64,000 bases of DNA from Blastocatellia bacterium (GTDB lineage Bacteria; Acidobacteriota; Blastocatellia; Pyrinomonadales; Pyrinomonadaceae). Numbering within the stretch: the stretch's first letter is position 1; every line of letters starts with the position of its first letter. A model generated the notes under the pieces. The model was not told the DNA's origin. It worked only from the letters and a program-made list of their open reading frames with translations, and ran no database searches. Where the stretch lies: positions 310,001 through 374,000 of the forward strand of contig PMSM01000003.1 of NCBI GenBank assembly GCA_003168335.1, in the 5' to 3' direction. Shown one piece after another: positions 33,843 to 44,898 of this stretch. A program made the translations under genes and the position numbers.

Positions 33843-34658
33843 CTACTTTACGGCTTTGATATTCGCCGGCTTGGCGAAGAGCGAGTCAGGCACCGTCTTG
33901 TTGAATTCGACTGACTCATAATTGGTGCGGCTGGTCTGGACGCCGTTGCGGAAATGATCGATGACATAGGCGGCCACAACGCCGTCGATGGTGATCGGTT
34001 TATACAGCCGATCTTCTTCCGCTATTTCGTCCATTTCGTCGGTGTCAGGCCTTTTGTTTTTGCGCTGGTAAAGAACTTTCGCGGGTAAGCCATCGTCGGC
34101 AGCGAACTCATATTCAATCCAGAAACCGTCCGGATAAGTAAGTCGCACGGTTTCGTTCCGCCGCGCCAGGCCCGCTTCCCGCCGGCCAATGTAACTCAAC
34201 TTGGCGCCTTGCGTGCGCCAGGCCCCGCGGAGCAGATTCTCGACACCCGTGCGGGTCGCCAGGCGAAAGTCTTCCAACTGCGCGGCAGTTTGGTCCTTGA
34301 GAGTTATGGCCGCGCTGTCGAATACCCAGCCTTTGTCGTGATCGTTTGTTTGAATCTGGCGCGCACCTCCGCCGCTGAATTCGGTTCGCTCTTTGTCGGG
34401 ATAAACTATGTAATCGGCGAAACGAAGCGGAATCCCCGACACGCCGTCCTTATAATCGGTGAAGAAGCCGCGACCAATTACTGTCTTCACGTTCAGGTAA
34501 CGATCGCCCCCCATCGCCTGCAGTCCGCGCTGGACGATCTTGGCAGCCTTTTCGTCAGGGTTGGGGCTCGGCTTTTCAGTCTGGGCCGCGCCGGCGAACG
34601 CCGCTAGTAGCAACAAGAGGCTGGCCGAGGCGAGTTTGCTGAAAAGGGACCTGATCAT
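33843..34658 (-). CDS. Secreted LolA-like / outer-membrane lipoprotein-sorting-type protein
   Basis: 271 aa from ATG 34658 (MIRSLFSKLASASLLLLLAAFAGAAQ, a signal peptide ending at AGAAQ). The mature part starts with KIVQRGLQAMGGDRYLNVKT and has a repeated beta pattern with GWVFDSAA, WIEYEF and AYVIDHFRNGVQTSRTNYESVEFN, as in LolA-fold acidobacterial proteins. It may carry lipid or lipoprotein in the periplasm. A longer frame to 34700 includes terminator sequence and is less likely. It lies downstream of the divergent Hsp100 gene across a terminator. Confidence 0.7.
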   Translation of the reverse strand: MIRSLFSKLASASLLLLLAAFAGAAQTEKPSPNPDEKAAKIVQRGLQAMGGDRYLNVKTVIGRGFFTDYKDGVSGIPLRFADYIVYPDKERTEFSGGGARQIQTNDHDKGWVFDSAAITLKDQTAAQLEDFRLATRTGVENLLRGAWRTQGAKLSYIGRREAGLARRNETVRLTYPDGFWIEYEFAADDGLPAKVLYQRKNKRPDTDEMDEIAEEDRLYKPITIDGVVAAYVIDHFRNGVQTSRTNYESVEFNKTVPDSLFAKPANIKAVK

Positions 34659-34690
34659 TGTGGATCCGGAGACAAAAGGAGCAAGAAGAA

Positions 34691-34718
34691 AGAGCCTCAA
34701 TCAGAAATTTGAGGCTCT
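34691..34718 (-). terminator. Intrinsic terminator after the ClpA/C-like gene
   Basis: On the minus strand AGAGCCTCAA and TTGAGGCTCT form a perfect 10-bp stem with an 8-base loop, followed by TTCTTCTTGCT. It lies 26 bases past the stop codon of the Hsp100 gene. Confidence 0.75.
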
Positions 34719-34743: not shown

Positions 34744-37026
34744 TCAACCGGCATTGACATCCGTGACATCGGCAAGCCTGGTAACTACTTCTCCGTCTTC
34801 GACGTCGACGATGAAATGCGAGCCGCTTTTCCACATCGTCGTAATCGGCAGCTTCACTCTCTCGTCGATGAAACGCTTCAGGAAACGCGCGCCGTATTGC
34901 ATGCTAAAGCCTTTTTCAGTTATCAGGGAGAGCGCCTGATCGGTAGTCTCGAACGACTTGCCCTGGCTCTTCATCTGGCGCCCGGTCTTATCGAGATAGA
35001 TTTGCGCGATCTGCTTCACTTCGTCCAGGGTGAGCGGCGCGAACACTACGATCTCGTCGATGCGATTGCGGAACTCGGGTGAAAAGCGCGCCTCGGCGGC
35101 TTTCATTACCTCGTTCTTGATCGCCCGAAAGTCGCCAGCTGTTTTCGTGCCAAAGCCCAACGGCTTTTCATACTTCTTAAAGCTTTCCGAACCGAGGTTC
35201 GACGTCATGATCACGATCGCGTCCGAAAGATAGACGCGTCGGCCGCGGCCATCGGTCAACCAGCCTTCATCGAAAGCCTGCAGGAAAATATTCATCAGGT
35301 ACGGTGAAGCTTTTTCAACTTCGTCGAGCAGCAAAACCGTGTATGGGTTCTCTCTTAGCTGCTCAGTTAAGATTCCGCCACGTTCGGATCCGACAATACC
35401 CCGCGGCATTCCGATTAGCTTTTCAATACCCACGGTGCCGTCGCCGTACTCGGACATGTCCAGGCGGACCATCTTGTGATCGTCACCGAACATGAACTCG
35501 GCCACCGCTTTCGCCAGCTCAGTCTTGCCCACACCTGTGGGACCCAGGAACAGCAACACGCCGTCAGGTTTATAATGTGATTCCTTCAGTGGGCCTTTGT
35601 TAAGTCGCAGCCGTTGGGCCACGGCCTTAATAGCCTCCTTCTGGCCGACGACGCGCTCGGAAAGTTGGACTTCGGTCAAGGCAAAGCGATCACTTGTGTC
35701 GCGAAAGATCATGTCGCGGGGAATTCGCGACTCTTGCGAGATCACGTCAATCACGTGCTCAGGCCTGACGATCATCGTGTGGGGCTCGTTGATCTCTACT
35801 TTGACTGAGGCAGTGTCGAGCCAGCCGATCGCCTTATCCGGCAAGTGCAGATTCCGAATGTACTTTGGCGCCATTTCCAGCGCGGTGTTAATTGCTTCGT
35901 CAGAGATTTGCACGGAGTAGTTACGTTCCAGGCGCGGCCGCACGCCCAGAAGAATCTCACGAGTTTCAAGGATTGTCGGCTCTTCAACTTTCACCAGCCG
36001 GAAACGGCGCGCCAGTGCTTCGTCCTCGGCAATGTATTCTTTGTACTCGGTCAGCGTCGTCGCGCCGAGGATCCGCAGCTCGCCTTTTGAGAGCGCCGAC
36101 TTAAACATGTTCGCTGCGTCTGAAGATGTTCCCATCGCCGCGCCCGCGCCAATGATCGTGTGCGCCTCGTCGATAAAGAGAATCAGGTTATCGCGTTCTT
36201 TAACTTCATCAATGATGCCCTTGATGCGTTCTTCGAACATGCCGCGCAACATGGTGCCGGCCACAATGCCGCCCATTTGCAGTTGCACCACGTGCGAGTT
36301 CCGCAGACGCGCCGGGACTTTATGCGGCTCGAGCTCGATCATCCGCGCCAGTCCCTCGACCACCGCCGTTTTGCCAACGCCCGGCTCGCCCACCAGCATT
36401 GGTGAATTGGCGCGCTCGCGGTGACAAAGAATCTCGATGATCTGCTGGATTTCCTTCTCGCGTCCGATGGTGGGCGGAATCTTGTCGGCCCGGGCCATGC
36501 GGTTCAACGAGACACCAAAGTGCTTCAGGTAAGGAGGCAACTCGAACTTCTTGCGATATTGCTCTTCCTGTTGCTCGCGCTCGTCAACGTTGGTACGGAC
36601 CTTTTCGACAACCGCTTCCGGAGTCGCGCCCAGGTTGAGCAGCACTTCGACAAAAAGACTGTCGTAGTTCGAAAGCACGTCGAAGATGTCGGTGGCCTCG
36701 ATCGTCTTTCGTCCGCGCGAGCGAGCCCGCTCCATTGCTCGTTTGAACAAGTCGGTCGTGTCGGGAGCTATCCTGAATCCCTTGCCGACATGCTGACGCG
36801 TGTTGTCCAAACGCTTATCGATAGCTCTGGTCACCATCGCGGGATCAAGAGCAAGGCTGCGCATGGTCGAGTTAAAGAGATCGGGTTCTTCTTTTGCCAG
36901 GCCACTGATGATGTGTTCGACCGCGATGTAATTTTGATCGCGGCGCCTTGATTCGCCCAAAGCGTTCTGCAGGACCCGCTGTCCGCTTTCGCCAAACTTA
37001 TCTTTGTATGCTTCCAAGTCGGCCAT
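34744..37026 (-). CDS. Divergent two-ring Hsp100 ATPase (ClpA/ClpC-like) lacking pore-loop tyrosines
   Basis: About 760 aa. It has a Clp-N domain, then D1 with Walker A GEPGVGKT (215-222, numbered from ATG 37032) and ILFIDEAH, and D2 with GPTGVGKT (497-504) and VLLLDEVEK. There is no coiled-coil M-domain, so the layout is ClpA-like. The D1 pore loop KYRG reads MLRG (261-264), and the D2 loop GYVGY reads GIVGS (545-549), so both lack the substrate-gripping aromatic residue. The sensor region [10 protein letters not shown] reads DKAIGWLDTA. A PLGFG at 624-628 sits where ClpP-binding IGF/IGL loops occur. ATG 37026 has AAGG 8 bases upstream. Upstream is clpB, downstream a terminator. Function is open: adaptor-dependent unfoldase, or remodeller without threading. 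Confidence 0.85.
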   Translation of the reverse strand: MADLEAYKDKFGESGQRVLQNALGESRRRDQNYIAVEHIISGLAKEEPDLFNSTMRSLALDPAMVTRAIDKRLDNTRQHVGKGFRIAPDTTDLFKRAMERARSRGRKTIEATDIFDVLSNYDSLFVEVLLNLGATPEAVVEKVRTNVDEREQQEEQYRKKFELPPYLKHFGVSLNRMARADKIPPTIGREKEIQQIIEILCHRERANSPMLVGEPGVGKTAVVEGLARMIELEPHKVPARLRNSHVVQLQMGGIVAGTMLRGMFEERIKGIIDEVKERDNLILFIDEAHTIIGAGAAMGTSSDAANMFKSALSKGELRILGATTLTEYKEYIAEDEALARRFRLVKVEEPTILETREILLGVRPRLERNYSVQISDEAINTALEMAPKYIRNLHLPDKAIGWLDTASVKVEINEPHTMIVRPEHVIDVISQESRIPRDMIFRDTSDRFALTEVQLSERVVGQKEAIKAVAQRLRLNKGPLKESHYKPDGVLLFLGPTGVGKTELAKAVAEFMFGDDHKMVRLDMSEYGDGTVGIEKLIGMPRGIVGSERGGILTEQLRENPYTVLLLDEVEKASPYLMNIFLQAFDEGWLTDGRGRRVYLSDAIVIMTSNLGSESFKKYEKPLGFGTKTAGDFRAIKNEVMKAAEARFSPEFRNRIDEIVVFAPLTLDEVKQIAQIYLDKTGRQMKSQGKSFETTDQALSLITEKGFSMQYGARFLKRFIDERVKLPITTMWKSGSHFIVDVEDGEVVTRLADVTDVNAG

Positions 37027-37088
37027 TCTCATTGCCTTGTTTTGTTTCTTCCTGAGGCGCCGTCCGTTTCAGATTGCCCGAAATCCAA

Positions 37089-37224
37089 TCAGGCGCGCAC
37101 CGCTTTGATGTGCAGAGCATATTCATCGTTGCGTTTCAGTGCAACAAGAATCTCTCCGCGTTCTGCTACGCAAATACCTTGCCAGCAAAGGGCCTCTCCC
37201 AAACCAGCCCTATTCTCGTACAGT
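37089..37224 (-). other. Possible short coding remnant between clpB and the Hsp100 gene
   Basis: The frame on this strand reads to a stop at 37089 and ends ILVALKRNDEYALHIKAVRA, a protein-like sequence with reasonable codon use. A start codon exists only inside the clpB 3' end (37274), and the early part there looks like a shadow of clpB. I do not recognise it. It may be a small gene with a non-ATG start or a decayed fragment. Confidence 0.25.
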
Positions 37225-39819
37225 TCACGCGGCCGCGACCGCAACCTCGGTCGCGAATTCCATCTCACCGTCACGAGTCGATACGATCACGGTCTGTCCC
37301 GGTAAGATTTCTCCGCGAAGGAGCTTCATTGCCAGCGGATTCTGAATCAGGGTTTGGATTGCTCGTTTTAGCGGCCGGGCGCCGAAATTCGGGTCGTAAC
37401 CTTCGCGGGCCAGCAATTCCCTGGCGGAGTCTTTCAACTCTAAAGAGACGTTCCGTTCATGCAGCATGGTGCGCAGACGCTCGAGCTGCACATCGATGAT
37501 CAAGGTGATTTGTTCCCGTGACAATCGATGGAAAATGACGATGTCGTCGATGCGATTTAGAAATTCCGGCTTGAAGTGTTCGCGGAGGACCTGGGTCACT
37601 GCTTCGCGCACTTGCTTTTCATCCTCACTGACATCCTGCATCTCGCGCGAGCCGAGGTTGGAAGTCATGATCAGGACCGTATTCTTGAAGTCTACGGTGC
37701 GGCCCTTCGAATCCGTCAGCCGGCCATCATCAAGAATTTGCAGCAGCACATTGAAAACGTCCGGGTGCGCTTTTTCGATCTCGTCGAAAAGGACAACGCT
37801 GTAGGGACGGCGCCGCACTGCTTCGGTTAGCTGTCCGCCTTCCTCGTAACCAACGTAGCCCGGCGGCGCGCCGATCATGCGCGCTACGGCGTGCTTCTCC
37901 ATGTACTCAGACATGTCGAGTCGAATCATCGCGCGTTCATCGTCAAATAGAAACTCGGCGAGCGCGCGGGCAGTTTCAGTCTTGCCGACACCCGTGGGGC
38001 CTAAGAAGATGAACGATCCCACCGGACGATTCGGATCCTGCAGGCCGGCGCGCGCTCTGCGCACGGCGTTGGCAACGGCCTCGAGTGCTTCATCCTGGCC
38101 AATAACGCGTTGGTGTAGTTGGTCCTCCATAGTGAGAAGCTTGTGCATCTCGCCTTCGAGCATCTTTGTAACGGGCACGCCGGTCCATTTGGCGACAACT
38201 TCAGCCACGTCTTCCTCGTCAACTTCTTCCTTGAGGGTGACGCCGTCGGTCTGGATTTGAGCCAGCTTGGCCTGTTCGACCTCAAACTTTCTCTCCAGCT
38301 CGGGAATCTGCCCGTACTGAATCTCAGAAGCTCGGCCGAGGTCGCCGGCATTCCGCGCTTGATCCAGTTGCAGTCGCAGTTGTTCCAGTTCGGCCTTCGC
38401 CTTGCGCATGCGCTCGATCGCTTCTTTTTCCGACTGCCACTTGGCCTTCATCCCTGAAGACTTTTCTTTCAAGTCCGCAATCTTTTTTTCGATCTCGCGG
38501 AGGCGGCTCTTCGAGCGCTCATCTTCTTCCCGTTGCAGGGCCTGGTGCTCGATTTCGAGCTGCATGGTTTCCCGCTGGACCTGATCGATTTCCTGCGGCA
38601 GCGAGTCGATTTCAATTCGTAGCTTCGAGGCAGCTTCGTCAATCAGATCGATGGCCTTGTCAGGTAGGAAGCGATCGGTGATGTAGCGATTTGAGAGCGT
38701 CGCCGCAGCGACGATTGCCGAGTCCTTGATGCGAACGCCGTGGTGAACTTCGTAGCGTTCCTTCAGCCCACGCAGGATTGCGATCGTGTCTTCGACGGTC
38801 GGTTCGCCAACATAGATCTGTTGGAAACGACGTTCGAGCGCAGCATCCTTTTCTATGTACTTCTTGTATTCGTTCAGCGTAGTCGCGCCCACGCAGCGCA
38901 GCTCACCGCGGGCGAGCGCGGGCTTTAACATGTTCGAAGCGTCGATCGCTCCTTCGGCCGCGCCGGCGCCGACCAGCGTGTGCAATTCATCGATAAACAG
39001 AATGATCTGGCCCTGCGCTGTTTCGATCTCTTTCAGCACGGCTTTCAATCGATCCTCAAACTCGCCGCGATATTTAGCGCCGGCCAACATCGAGCCGAGG
39101 TCCAACCCGACCAGGCGCTTGTTGCGCAAGGTCTCGGGAACATCACCGGAAACGATGCGTTGAGCCAGCCCTTCGACGATCGCGGTTTTACCGACGCCCG
39201 GCTCGCCGATCAGCACGGGATTATTTTTTGTGCGGCGGGACAACACTTGAATCGTGCGGCGAATTTCGCCGTCGCGGCCGATGACCGGATCAAGCTTGCC
39301 CTTGCGCGCCAAATCGGTAAGGTCGCGGGCGTATTTTGCCAGCGCCTGATAATTTGCTTCGGCATTTTGATCGGTGATGCGAGCGCCACCGCGCGTCTGC
39401 TCGATCGCTTTCAGCAGATCATCGCGATTCACTCCGTGCTGGCGCATGAGCTTTCCGCCCGCTCCGTCCTTCTCGTCGGAAATCGCCAGCAGTAGATGCT
39501 CAGTCGAGATGTACTCGTCCTGCATCTTCTCCGCTTGTTTTTCCGCCGCGGTAAATATCTGCGTCAAGCGAGGACTGAAATATTGTTGACCACCCTGAAC
39601 CCGCGGAAAACGCGCGACCGCAGCCTGGCAATCGTTGAGCACAACCTGAACGTTAGCGCCGAGCTTGCCGAGCAGCGGGCGGACAATTCCTTCCGGCTGT
39701 TCGAGCATCGCGCTGAGCACATGCTCGGGCTCGACCTGCTGATTCTGATTCCGCTCAGCGAGTTCGATTCCCGCCTGGATGGCTTCTTGTCCTCGAAGTG
39801 TGAATCTGTCTAAACGCAT
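37225..39819 (-). CDS. clpB: ATP-dependent disaggregase ClpB
   Basis: 864 aa, full length. Clp-N domain ([20 protein letters not shown]), D1 with Walker A GEPGVGKT and pore loop [11 protein letters not shown], and a long coiled-coil M-domain (about residues 405-530, rich in EREEDERSK-type heptads). D2 has GPTGVGKT, the pore loop GYVGYEEGG and TSNLGSREM. It has no ClpP loop, as expected. It extracts proteins from aggregates with DnaK. Hsp20 lies upstream and the divergent Hsp100 downstream, all on one strand, forming a proteostasis block. Confidence 0.96.
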
Positions 39820-39916: not shown

Positions 39917-40417
39917 TCACTTGGCTGTGGCCTTCGAAGTTTCTGCTTTGGCCTCAATTGTCTTGGCAGGCTCGCCGTCTTTAACCTCGATGCGGCGGGC
40001 TTTCGTCTCCGCGCGCTTCGGCAGCGCTACTCGCAAAACACCATTACGGTAATCAGCGGTAGCACCTTCGGCCGAAACCGTATTCGGCAGAGTGAACGAG
40101 CGCAGGAAACTGCCGTAGGCCCGCTCTACCCTATGATAGTTGTCGGTCTCGTCCCTCTTTTCGAAGTGACGCTCGCCGCGAAGCGTGATTACGTTGTTTT
40201 CAACCGATAGATCAAAGTCCTCACGTTTCATACCGGGCAACTCAGCCTCGAGCACGATCTGGTCCTTGTTCTCATAGATGTCCACGTTGGGACTCCACGA
40301 ACCGCGGGCAATACCTTCGTCGTCGAAGGCGCGGGTCACATTCCCCGTGAAAAGACGGTTGACTTCCTCCTGGAGAGTTCGCAGATCGCGAAACGGGTCG
40401 TAACGAACGAAACTCAT
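39917..40417 (-). CDS. Small heat-shock protein, Hsp20/alpha-crystallin family
   Basis: 166 aa from ATG 40417 (MSFVRYDPFRDLRTLQEEVN), preceded by an AGGAGG Shine-Dalgarno. The longer frame to 40498 has no such site. The alpha-crystallin domain spans about residues 45-135 (NVDIYENKDQIVLEAELPGM) with the closing motif YRNGVLRVALPKR. It is an ATP-independent holdase that hands clients to ClpB/DnaK; clpB is the next gene. The promoter at 40505-40533 is of sigma70 type. No CIRCE element or clear sigma32 box was seen. Confidence 0.93.
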   Translation of the reverse strand: MSFVRYDPFRDLRTLQEEVNRLFTGNVTRAFDDEGIARGSWSPNVDIYENKDQIVLEAELPGMKREDFDLSVENNVITLRGERHFEKRDETDNYHRVERAYGSFLRSFTLPNTVSAEGATADYRNGVLRVALPKRAETKARRIEVKDGEPAKTIEAKAETSKATAK

Positions 40418-40504
40418 GACCAAAAACCTCCTGAATTCTTGATGGCTTTCTTGCCCAGGGAGTTGGCGCAATTTCCACCGCCATTCAGCCCTGAGCATGA
40501 GGCG

Positions 40505-40649: not shown

Positions 40650-42080
40650 TTAGCGCAAGCCAAAAAAGCGCTTGATCGAAGCGAGCACACCAGCCGATTC
40701 GTGGACGCTGTCTTGAGAGGCTTGCAGAGAGCCCGCTGCCAGATCAGCCTGGCGCTCGGCGATGGTCCAACTGATGGATTCGGCGAGGCTGGGGTTTGTC
40801 TCGAAGATGTGTTTCATTGCAGCATGGCCGATCTCAAGCACTTCTGTTTCTTCCAGAGCAACAACGTTGGCGGTGCGCGGCTCTCCGGTGAACAGCGCCA
40901 TCTCACCAAAGAAGTTCCCTTCGCTTAAGACTGCAACTGTCCGGGGGCCGCCTTTGTCGGCTACCTGGACGGCTACCCGGCCGTTGTGCACGACGAACAT
41001 TGAAGAGCCTTCGTCACCGGCGCGAATCAGCGTCTCGCTGGGAGCGAAGACGTGACCCACGGTTGCCGTCGCGAGTTGCTTCAACTCTTCTGGTGACAGT
41101 GGTGAGAAAACATCGACGGCGGACAAGCGGTCCGCGATCTGTTCTTCGGCGGTGGTCGGCCTGATTACGGCCTTGCGTTGGGTGTGAAGAGTGAGTGTAG
41201 GAGTCGAGAAGGTGAGGCCACTGCGGCGCAATGCGTACCACACTCGTTGACGCACCAAAGCGTCGGTGTCGTTGTACTTGGCATAATCCTCGAGCCAGTA
41301 CTTGATTTCCCATTCAATTGCAGAGTCGCCGAGGTTCCGGATACGCACGATCGGCGTAATCTTCTCTGAAACGTTATCGGCGTCACGCACTGATTCGCGG
41401 ACGACGTGAATTGTTTTAGCGGGCGAATCAGTGTAGAGCGTCCCGAAGAAGACTAAGCGCGCATTCAAGTTGTCGCGCGGGCAAACTTCAATCGCTTCTT
41501 TTGCAGCGTTGCTATTGCTGACCAGGACGATGTGATTCTGGAAGGTCCGAATCTTGATGGCGCGCCAGTTAATGCTCTCCACTACGCCGGTGTGCTTCTG
41601 TTGACCTACGACTATGACGTCACCGACCTGGAAGGGACGGTCTGCGTGAAGGGAAATACCAGCGAAGAAATTTCCCAGCGTGTCCTGCAAAGCAAGGCCT
41701 ATGATTACGCCGAAGATCGCGGACGTGGTGAAAATTGCACCGAGCTGTACGTCGGTGTAGAGCGATTTGAAGATGAGGACGAAAAGAATAGTGAATGCTA
41801 CGAGCGTAAAGATGTTGCGAACCAGGGAGGGTGCTTCGTAGCCGCGGCGAACGCGAAACGCAAAGTCAAAGACGGCCGCGTTAATAACCCGCACCCCGAG
41901 GTAAGCAAATAAAGCCCAGAGTACGAGCGCGGGGATCCTAAACCAGGTCGGTTCTGGATAACCGAGCGCCAGACCGTAACCGAAGAACTTATTGAATAGA
42001 TAGAGCCCCAACGCCACGACTGCGGTCGTGAAAATCAAGACCAAAAATCTATTCTTTTGACTTGAGCGACTAACTGCCAT
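40650..42080 (-). CDS. MscS-type mechanosensitive channel with C-terminal cyclic-nucleotide-binding domain
   Basis: 476 aa from ATG 42080 (MAVSRSSQKNR); a second ATG at 42092 is possible. Four to five N-terminal helices include the pore helix TTSAIFGVIIGLALQDTLGN (Gly/Ala-rich TM3). The MscS beta domain (DRPFQVGDVIVVGQQKHTGV and FQNHIVLVSNSNA) follows. Residues about 335-450 are a cNMP-binding fold with FFGEMALFTGEPRTANVVA, the phosphate-binding cassette. It should open under membrane tension and may be gated by cAMP or cGMP (inference). It is upstream of hsp20 on the same strand but has its own gap. Confidence 0.92.
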   Translation of the reverse strand: MAVSRSSQKNRFLVLIFTTAVVALGLYLFNKFFGYGLALGYPEPTWFRIPALVLWALFAYLGVRVINAAVFDFAFRVRRGYEAPSLVRNIFTLVAFTILFVLIFKSLYTDVQLGAIFTTSAIFGVIIGLALQDTLGNFFAGISLHADRPFQVGDVIVVGQQKHTGVVESINWRAIKIRTFQNHIVLVSNSNAAKEAIEVCPRDNLNARLVFFGTLYTDSPAKTIHVVRESVRDADNVSEKITPIVRIRNLGDSAIEWEIKYWLEDYAKYNDTDALVRQRVWYALRRSGLTFSTPTLTLHTQRKAVIRPTTAEEQIADRLSAVDVFSPLSPEELKQLATATVGHVFAPSETLIRAGDEGSSMFVVHNGRVAVQVADKGGPRTVAVLSEGNFFGEMALFTGEPRTANVVALEETEVLEIGHAAMKHIFETNPSLAESISWTIAERQADLAAGSLQASQDSVHESAGVLASIKRFFGLR

Positions 42081-42234
42081 GCAGCGACTCAATTCTTTAG
42101 ATCAGGTTGGCTTAGCGAGCGAACGTACTTTTACCACCAAATTCCTCGCTTGGCGAGAGTGAAAATCTCACCGGCCACGAGTCTGGAGAGATTTCGCGTG
42201 AGATCCGCGACCCGGAAAGAGGCCGCGGCGGAGA

Positions 42235-43659: not shown

Positions 43660-44898
43660 TCATCCCAATAGCTTCGGCAGTCTTTGCCGCCAGCCTTTCG
43701 GGAGCAGAATTTCAATCGCATCGTCAACGGTTACGATTCCGAGAATCTCGCCGGCCTCGTCGACCACCGGCAGAGCCAGCAGGTTATACTCGGCGATCTT
43801 CTGCGCCACTTCGGCCGCACCGTCGTCGGGGTGCGCAACTTGCAGAACGCGGCGCATGACGCGCTCAAGCGGAGCAGACGAATCAGCCAGGATCAAACTG
43901 CGCAACGCAATTACTCCGACCAGTTTCCACGAATCTTCGGCGGCCACGACGTACAGGTAGTAGATCATGTTCGGCGTTTCGGCCATCTCGCGCAAACGCG
44001 CCAGGGCTTCGCCGACCGTCAAATCACGCGGCAGGGTGACAAACTCAGTTGTCATCAATCCGCCGGCACTGTCATCCGCATAAGTCAGGAGTTCGGCGAC
44101 TTCGAGTTGCTCATCCTCCTCCATGAGGTTGAGCAAATCTTCCGCCTTCTCTTCCGGCAGATCGCCCAGCACGTCCGCCGCTTCGTCCGGCGCCATCCGT
44201 TCGAGGATGTCTGCCGCGCGCTCTTCATCCATGTCGCCGATAATCTGCGCTTGCCGTTCGGCGGCCATCTCTTCCAGGGTTTCGGCGGCCGTTTCATCGT
44301 CGAGCGACTCGACAATTTCGGCGCCGTGCTGGTAGGACAGGGCCTCAGCGAGTCGCGCAATTTCCACCGGATGCAGGCGCAAAAGCTTCCCGCGCGAGGA
44401 TTTCAACTGCACGGTCGCGGCGTCAGTGGCGAGATAGCCGACGTCGGCCCAGTCGATCACTTCGACGGGTCGATTGCTGCGCAGGAACGCGGGCGCGAGC
44501 CGCCGCCACAATCCCATCAGGCCGACATCCGCTCCCGTTACGCGCCATTCATTTGCGGCTTCAATGATCTGTACATCGTTCACCCGCACCACGCGCTTGC
44601 CGTCAACGTCGACCAATTGTTTGTCGAGCACGTCGCGCGCCAGCAGGACCTCGCCGTCGCGTCGCATGAATGGACGCAGGTCGAGAATGTCTGACTTCAA
44701 ACGCACGCCGTCCTCGCCGAAATGTGAGATTCGCCAGCGCGACATAAAGAAATCGCGCCGCCGATAGCGGGCCACAAAACCGGCTACCGGAGGATGTTCG
44801 TCTTCGCCCAAACGCACGATGACGTCTCTGAGCGTTGCCACACGCTCACCGTCGAGGTCGAGGATAGGCCGACCAAGCACTTGCGAAAGATAAAGCAT
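43660..44898 (-). CDS. MgtE N-terminal + CBS pair + PRC-barrel protein without channel
   Basis: 412 aa. N-terminal PRC-barrel-like repeats (MLYLSQVLGRPILDLDGERVA and LLARDVLDKQLVDVDGKRV) precede an MgtE-N superhelix (LEEMAAERQAQIIGDMDEERAADILERM, read as consecutive EMxxxxxxxIxxxMD-type repeats) and a CBS pair (LMTTEFVTLPRDLTVGEAL and VMRRVLQVAHPDDGAAEV). MgtE-N and CBS form the cytosolic Mg2+ sensor of MgtE channels; the membrane domain is missing and the protein ends at LLPKGWRQRLPKLLG. It is probably the sensor partner of the Nramp-like protein encoded next on the same strand. Confidence 0.87.
   Translation of the reverse strand: MLYLSQVLGRPILDLDGERVATLRDVIVRLGEDEHPPVAGFVARYRRRDFFMSRWRISHFGEDGVRLKSDILDLRPFMRRDGEVLLARDVLDKQLVDVDGKRVVRVNDVQIIEAANEWRVTGADVGLMGLWRRLAPAFLRSNRPVEVIDWADVGYLATDAATVQLKSSRGKLLRLHPVEIARLAEALSYQHGAEIVESLDDETAAETLEEMAAERQAQIIGDMDEERAADILERMAPDEAADVLGDLPEEKAEDLLNLMEEDEQLEVAELLTYADDSAGGLMTTEFVTLPRDLTVGEALARLREMAETPNMIYYLYVVAAEDSWKLVGVIALRSLILADSSAPLERVMRRVLQVAHPDDGAAEVAQKIAEYNLLALPVVDEAGEILGIVTVDDAIEILLPKGWRQRLPKLLG

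Follow-up and report, generated by a model that had tools for sequence, protein, structure and literature searches.

Unfoldases of the Clp/Hsp100 type that partner with ClpP carry a [LIVM]G[FL]-type tripeptide in a D2 loop after sensor-1 (D1 and D2 being the two AAA+ rings), and canonical threading unfoldases are marked by an aromatic residue in the pore-1 loop of either ring. ClpC of Bacillus, Staphylococcus and Mycobacterium combines two AAA+ rings and a Clp_N-type N domain with a VGF-type ClpP loop, an M domain and the pore-1 loops KYRG and GYVGY; Escherichia coli ClpA has KYRG and GYVGF loops, and ClpB/Hsp104 has the same D1/D2 fold. A natural loss of the pore-1 aromatic is described in the D1 ring of Cdc48/p97 (Met in yeast, Leu in p97), a double-ring ATPase of another AAA family that can meet a protease (PMC5511170, PMC9098461; these and the other papers given by such numbers are cited from excerpts). 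Here we report an Hsp100 ATPase encoded in a 64,000-nucleotide stretch of a Blastocatellia bacterium genome (contig PMSM01000003.1, positions 310,001 to 374,000; hereafter the window), which belongs to a family whose D2 pore-1 loop reads RGIVGS, with Ile in place of the aromatic residue. These RGIVGS ATPases almost certainly constitute a distinct functional Hsp100 subfamily; within the known Hsp100 kind, they are set apart by a characteristic pore-loop signature and a characteristic genomic setting.

An earlier note on this stretch, made from the letters alone, had placed an MLRG loop at 36252-36241 and a GIVGS loop at 35400-35386 (residues 543-547, in a numbering that starts at the 37026 ATG), and these coordinates are exact. 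The neighbouring ClpB carries the ordinary KYRG and GYVGY at the aligned places, which confirms the contrast drawn in that note. Across the family, 129 distinct rows were kept out of 167, and seven incomplete ones were dropped to leave 122 that are complete across residues 195-660 (the complete cores). The D2 loop is RGIVGS in every one of the 122 cores, in 52/52 clusters at 90% identity and in 19/19 clusters at 80% identity, while canonical ClpA, ClpB and ClpC rows have GYVG[FYH] there (24/24; one further canonical-type row, L123, reads GYVGS). Residues 536-547, which contain the loop, show zero entropy within the family, where the median is 0.98 bits. At the D1 pore-1 position, Leu occurs in 70 and Phe in 52 of the cores, as MLRG (69), IFRG (22), VFRG (18), MFRG (12) and VLRG (1); counted by 90%-identity clusters, Phe has 29 and Leu 23, and the distribution amounts to two changes on the tree. 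The idea that both pore aromatics are lost therefore applies to the window protein, which has Leu at D1 and whose lineage has an aromatic in neither ring, and to part of the family, but not to the family as a whole, in which the loss is constant for the D2 aromatic alone. Judged from these alignments, the D2 aromatic-to-Ile change is the defining mark of the family, with the D1 loss confined to some lineages.

The earlier note had allowed that orthologues might carry the usual Tyr or that an alignment might place the loops elsewhere. Neither is the case: Tyr is found in neither loop of the 122 cores, the loops are held in place by the strongly conserved flanks AGT..RG.FE.R (D1) and KLIG.P.G.VG...GG.LT (D2), and in a structural model the D2 loop lies between helices, so that a local oddity or a misalignment is ruled out as the origin of the odd loops. 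Two further segments are altered. The DKAIGWLDTA box is present as previously described (PDKAIGWLDTA in context), and aligned orthologue rows give its family form as PDK-x-I-x-W-[LIV]-[DN]-[TS]. The D2 pore-2 segment, SEYMEKH in canonical proteins, is SEYxDgTV in the family and one residue longer than in ClpA, whose D2 pore-2 loop comprises residues 526-531 (PMC9663308). One locus, L067, has a canonical GYVGY at D2; the N half of its open reading frame is 95% identical to the Pyrinomonas orthologue and the C half 58% identical to ClpB. This union of a family N half with a ClpB/ClpC-like D2 is a probable assembly chimera and a possible real hybrid; it was excluded from the 129- and 122-row loop counts, the motor counts and the neighbourhood counts, and included in earlier orthologue alignment tallies.

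Walker A and Walker B are intact in both rings of the window ATPase, as had been noted before. All rows with letters at the positions concerned (124-127 of the 129) retain both Walker A Lys residues, the Walker B Asp-Glu, the sensor-1 Thr and Asn, the D1 Arg fingers, the D2 Arg finger and the D2 sensor-2 Arg, and the ATPase is therefore not a decayed copy. Pfam matches are AAA, AAA_lid_9, AAA_2, ClpB_D2-small and a weak Clp_N. With two AAA+ modules bearing Walker A/B, sensor and Arg-finger residues together with a ClpB_D2-small domain, the protein is by predicted fold and ATP sites a class I Clp/Hsp100 double-ring ATPase, for which we infer a hexameric form. The AlphaFold2 model, built on a 35-row alignment (mean predicted local distance difference test score 82.7, predicted template modelling score 0.67), finds its best fold matches, among the matches listed, in ClpC, ClpB, Hsp104 and ClpA structures (Z ~30-34), and ClpC proteins are the nearest solved structures by sequence (top match E 2.5e-148). 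The stretches of lowest model confidence include 541-549 (D2 loop) and 621-624 (ClpP loop), both between helices, as is expected of mobile loops.

Comparison with the described subfamilies sets the protein apart from each of them. From PDK to the D2 Walker A the linker measures 99 residues, as against 100 in E. coli ClpA, 133 in the genome's own ClpC-like protein and 218-221 in ClpB; this ClpA-like length means that the M domain is absent. ClpA is also similar in length (758 amino acids, 760 here) and in its ClpP loop (IGL), but it has KYRG/GYVGF loops and falls outside the family clade (in a quick tree without bootstraps), and the canonical ClpA paralogues in 20 genomes of the window's class are not linked to any of six chaperone genes. 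ClpC, although nearest by sequence and alike in its N domain, its two rings and the place of its ClpP loop, differs in that the family has [MIV][LF]RG, RGIVGS, a recoded D2 pore-2 segment and no M domain, so that the M domain and KYRG/GYVG[YFH] loops by which ClpC is recognized are missing. ClpB/Hsp104 shares the D1/D2 fold and frequently the same gene cluster, whereas the family has a ClpP loop, other pore loops and no M domain; the window ATPase and the neighbouring ClpB are 35% and 40% identical over their two halves. In line with this, the protein scores far under the NCBIfam cut-offs for ClpA (TIGR02639, 600 against 993 bits; NF008263, 439 against 1350), ClpB (TIGR03346, 610 against 1232), ClpG and ClpK (477 and 503, both against 1900) and ClpV. 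ClpG/ClpK and ClpL are likewise extra stress-tied Hsp100s, but ClpG has an M domain and an extra N-terminal domain (PMC8129007). Cdc48/p97, for its part, keeps Trp-Phe in D2 and lost the aromatic in D1, whereas the RGIVGS family lost it always in D2 and sometimes in D1.

The family is nearly universal in the window's class, where the ATPase finds matches at E <=1e-200 in 145 of 162 genomes (94 of the 101 high-quality ones). A 297-genome sample of the phylum adds six carriers outside the class (G269, G293, G026, G074, G028 and G131), with orthologues of 53-62% identity; the weaker matches listed have ~34-42% identity, and the 21 that were fetched all have canonical GYVG loops. A scan of named genomes yielded 63 loci, with identities to the window ATPase of 49% to 90%, among them Chloracidobacterium metagenome-assembled genomes (MAGs), MAGs titled Deltaproteobacteria and Pyrinomonas methylaliphatogenes K22 (L095), a cultured strain. 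Pyrinomonas belongs to the family of the window's genome, in agreement with Blastocatellia as its class. In three further phylum-level groups, designated here by one locus each, the gene was found in 37 of 247 sampled genomes (L077; likewise 37/247 with L076 as query), 28 of 30 (L101) and 8 of 9 (L091), several of these records being titled Deltaproteobacteria or merely 'bacterium'. The ATPase family thus spans at least four phylum-level groups, Acidobacteriota included. Among the matches listed in a search of PubMed Central titles and abstract openings, which covers open-licence literature and leaves most subscription papers outside, no description of the RGIVGS subfamily or its loop was found, and none of the papers listed for the loop motif concerns an Hsp100; this branch of Hsp100 unfoldases is widespread and apparently undescribed.

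Phylogenetic analysis indicates that the family forms a clade separate from ClpA, ClpB and ClpC, a comparison that the earlier note had called for. In a quick search without bootstraps on 86 rows, from which the columns of both pore-1 loops, the ClpP loop and the PDKAI box had been removed, all 61 family rows lie on one side of a branch with a Shimodaira–Hasegawa-like approximate likelihood ratio support of 100 and a stem length of 0.74. The 25 rows on the other side comprise E. coli ClpA and ClpB, the genome's own ClpB and ClpC-like protein, and 21 canonical-type paralogues; the row set does not include ClpE, ClpL, ClpV and plastid ClpC/D. Two rows with canonical loops, L123 and L168, attach near the family base on long branches, which leaves the sister group unsettled.

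A PLGFG had been pointed out where ClpP-docking loops occur, and in the alignment PLGF (EKPLGFGTK in context) indeed falls opposite ClpC VGF and ClpA IGL, while ClpB has no such loop. The 122 cores read P[LM]GF (118), PLGY (3) or PFGF (1) at this position, in agreement with the tripeptide of ClpP-partner unfoldases, and a single SVGF row among the 129 lies outside the core set. Pro622, Gly624 and Phe625 are near-invariant, the tripeptide positions having an entropy of 0-0.7 bits and the flanking loop positions up to 3.3. On this evidence of sequence conservation, the RGIVGS ATPase probably partners ClpP through the conserved [LMF]G[FY] loop.

The genomic setting is that of heat-shock chaperones. 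In the window the order is Hsp20, ClpB, ATPase and a 285-amino-acid gene (Table 1). The common order in the window's class is ClpB, Hsp20, GrpE, GroEL, ATPase and the 285-amino-acid gene, with GroEL missing in some loci and none of these chaperones beside the ATPase in some others. Loci in the phylum of L077 mostly run DnaK, (Hsp20), DnaJ, ATPase and then Usp or ClpB, and those in the phylum of L101 (Hsp20), ATPase, ClpB; clpB adjoins the ATPase gene in the window, as it does in each of the 13 loci examined from the L101 group. Neighbourhoods were counted in 84 distinct loci with at least 5 kb upstream, out of 117 (33 were dropped for short upstream sequence, lack of an ATPase match or, in the case of L109, for duplicating L089). 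A ClpB, Hsp20, GrpE, GroEL, DnaK or DnaJ gene lies on the same strand within 5 kb of the ATPase in 64 of the 84: 27/40 in Acidobacteriota, 25/27 in Deltaproteobacteria-titled loci, 12/12 in the phylum of L101 and 0/5 in that of L091. A smaller earlier locus set had given 53/70. As a control, canonical ClpA paralogues have any of the six chaperones within ~6 kb in 0 of 20 genomes of the window's class, a difference with a Fisher p of 1e-10 that is overstated because the genomes are kin, yet three distinct gene orders agree.

Table 1. Features of the RGIVGS ATPase gene and its chaperone neighbours in the window
Feature	Position	Strand	Remarks
Hsp100 (class I Clp) ATPase, RGIVGS family	34744..37032	-	762 aa (ATG 37032) or 760 aa (ATG 37026)
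N-terminal Clp_N-like domain, ~residues 1-145	36592..37026	-	weak Clp_N match; helical in AlphaFold2 model; aligns to ClpC N domain
D1 Walker A GEPGVGKT, residues 213-220	36367..36390	-	Lys219 in 125/125 rows with a letter there
D1 pore-1 loop MLRG, residues 259-262	36241..36252	-	canonical KYRG/RYRG
DKAIGWLDTA box, residues 397-406	35809..35838	-	canonical DKAIDxIDEA
D2 Walker A GPTGVGKT, residues 495-502	35521..35544	-	motif comparison
D2 pore-2 loop region, residues 528-533	35428..35445	-	recoded; canonical MEKH-sV, family xDgTVx
D2 pore-1 loop RGIVGS, residues 542-547	35386..35403	-	canonical PGYVG[FYH]; 122/122 distinct complete cores
PLGF, residues 622-625, at ClpP-docking-loop position	35152..35163	-	aligns with ClpC VGF and ClpA IGL
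285-aa gene, family unassigned	33843..34700	-	downstream of ATPase; no Pfam/NCBIfam match at E 0.001
ClpB	37225..39819	-	directly upstream of ATPase, 192-nt spacer; TIGR03346 1387 bits against cut-off 1232; canonical pore loops
Hsp20 small heat-shock protein	39917..40498	-	upstream of ClpB; PF00011

The 285-amino-acid downstream product has, by eye, a signal-like N terminus, and its cluster is present in 36 of 71 compared loci, the window included. No exact match to the CIRCE heat-shock operator occurs in the window, and consensus-type searches of 36900-37330 gave no sigma-70-type promoter or terminator-like site. In many related loci a GroEL gene stands between grpE and the ATPase gene (for example L045 889-2520); it is missing from the window cluster. 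Usp and MgtE-type magnesium transporter genes lie downstream of the ATPase in many Deltaproteobacteria-titled loci (L077, L079, L084, L088 and others), and an MgtE_N/CBS protein is encoded near the window's chaperone cluster at 43660-44898. An MscS-type mechanosensitive channel fused to a C-terminal cyclic-nucleotide-binding domain is encoded at 40650-42092 on the reverse strand.

Two other proteins of the same genome carry related Clp_N domains. A stand-alone 141-amino-acid Clp_N protein (L122 3778-4203, reverse strand; G000:C14:574780-575202) is 42% identical to the ATPase N domain and resembles an N-domain copy cut loose from the ATPase. A role for it as a conserved partner or decoy was considered and is unsupported: an N-domain search gave a match in 86 of 98 class genomes, nearly all of the matches listed lie inside ATPase frames, and a clear separate short protein occurs only in the window's genome (two shorter frames, of 300 amino acids in G324 and 346 in G359, were left aside). 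A 534-amino-acid protein (L121 1951-3555, reverse strand; around G000:C7:190108-190470) likewise has such a Clp_N domain, after which come a hydrophobic segment (by eye) and a C-terminal part without assignment, and it adjoins a protein with a weak TPR match.

We propose that the ATPase would act as a double-ring, ATP-driven unfoldase that threads polypeptides through rebuilt pore loops, with Ile always in the D2 motor ring and, in D1, Leu in part of the family and Phe elsewhere. That ATP-driven threading is retained seems likely, with good confidence. The ATPase would dock ClpP through its [LMF]G[FY] loop and would serve the heat-shock programme together with DnaK/DnaJ/GrpE, ClpB and small Hsps, a cooperation suggested by gene linkage in most lineages. 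Less bulky loops would weaken the hold on the chain, which would then slip at stable folds; clients would therefore be proteins already unfolded by Hsp70/ClpB, and folded proteins would be spared. Bulkier pore loops are described as giving better grip and slower pulling (PMC7018516, citing another study), and in p97 D1 Leu278-Ala279 hold substrate in shallower notches with weaker substrate density (PMC9098461). Hsp104 is reported to depend on a hydrophobic loop-3 and not on Tyr in itself (PMC5741831), and yeast Cdc48, in which regaining the D1 aromatic is lethal, illustrates a use that such a loss can have (PMC5511170). By such analogies, low grip with Hsp70/ClpB-prepared clients may apply, at a little short of even chances; the whole reading, in which an Hsp100 of the heat-shock cluster partners ClpP and goes on threading with aliphatic loops of lower grip, could equally be right or wrong.

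Several observations weigh against this reading. In 20 of the 84 loci the ATPase has no chaperone neighbour in the span searched, including all five of the L091 group, as well as L089, L106 and L110, which are more distant Acidobacteriota, and the neighbourhood control was confined to genomes of the window's own class. ClpP matched strongly in 28 of 29 carrier genome entries (28 genomes, as G074 and G436 are one; G430 gave a weak partial match only), but this co-occurrence is permissive and weak support because ClpP is nearly universal. Recruitment of ClpB to Hsp70 is mediated by its M domain (PMC8129007), and with that domain absent an Hsp70 link would need another contact. On the loops themselves, the loop-3 residue exchanged in Hsp104 was Val663, for Gly, and the work did not involve a Tyr-to-Ile change (PMC5741831), and HslU Y91I is reported to be defective in SulA degradation (PMC10743992), so Ile at D2 may block threading instead of weakening it.

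This last point bears on the suggestion of the earlier note that the protein remodels without normal threading or uses an adaptor. Loops that nudge or hold clients without processive threading, perhaps with an adaptor for recognition, would accord with the HslU result, with the recoding of the D2 pore-2 loop as well and with yeast Cdc48, in which the D1 aromatic was lost and restoring it is lethal, with evidence that proteins are then forcibly threaded and, with the 20S proteasome, degraded (PMC5511170). Yet an absence of threading does not follow from the changes: both loops stay hydrophobic ([MIV][LF]RG and GIVG), and in Hsp104 loop hydrophobicity, not aromaticity, is reported to matter (loop-3; PMC5741831), although HslU Y91I speaks to the contrary. 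With D1 Phe in 52/122 cores, all examined ATPase residues retained and a ClpP-docking loop that makes little sense without delivery of a chain to ClpP, we consider such a remodeller unlikely. No sign of an adaptor emerged in this analysis, and the Hsp70/ClpB/small Hsp gene cluster, of which the earlier note named the neighbouring ClpB only, is a stronger contextual clue.

The same company of ClpB, DnaK, DnaJ, GrpE and Hsp20 would also suit a stand-alone or Hsp70-assisted disaggregase that, like ClpG or ClpL, releases protein for refolding without ClpP, and the ClpG gene, too, is clustered with further genes of quality control (PMC8129007). The [LMF]G[FY] tripeptide in all 122 cores, at a loop that ClpB lacks, the absence of an M domain, as seen in the linker length, and scores far below the ClpG and ClpK cut-offs make this, too, improbable. 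Adjacency to clpB in the window and in the L101 group could alternatively point to a subunit that mixes into ClpB/ClpC hexamers and tunes their pore; the low identity to the neighbouring ClpB, the full catalytic sets in both rings, as for a homohexamer, and the many loci without a clpB neighbour render it very improbable. As for a paralogue that is degenerate or misread and has no special function, nothing further than the odd loops speaks for it, and it is refuted, with hardly any residual probability, by the invariant D2 loop, a motor conserved in four phylum-level groups and the presence of the gene in 145 of 162 class genomes.

Returning to the ClpP-partnered threading unfoldase, a more specific form of it, which we put forward tentatively and think rather doubtful, is a triage valve that would be a bacterial counterpart of Cdc48: a ClpP-docking Hsp100 whose D2 ring, permanently without aromatic grip, could not force folded proteins into ClpP and would pass only clients opened by Hsp70/ClpB, standing between refolding and proteolysis. 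If this is true, RGIVGS would be a second, independent pore-loop code for translocation, fixed in at least four phylum-level groups. A whole family dispenses with the D2 aromatic while its motor is otherwise complete and its gene near-universal in a class, and it offers a natural system in which to ask if threading itself depends on aromaticity or if aromatic residues only add power against stable folds. The family points to a hitherto unrecognized arm of the heat-shock network, placed between Hsp70/ClpB and ClpP.

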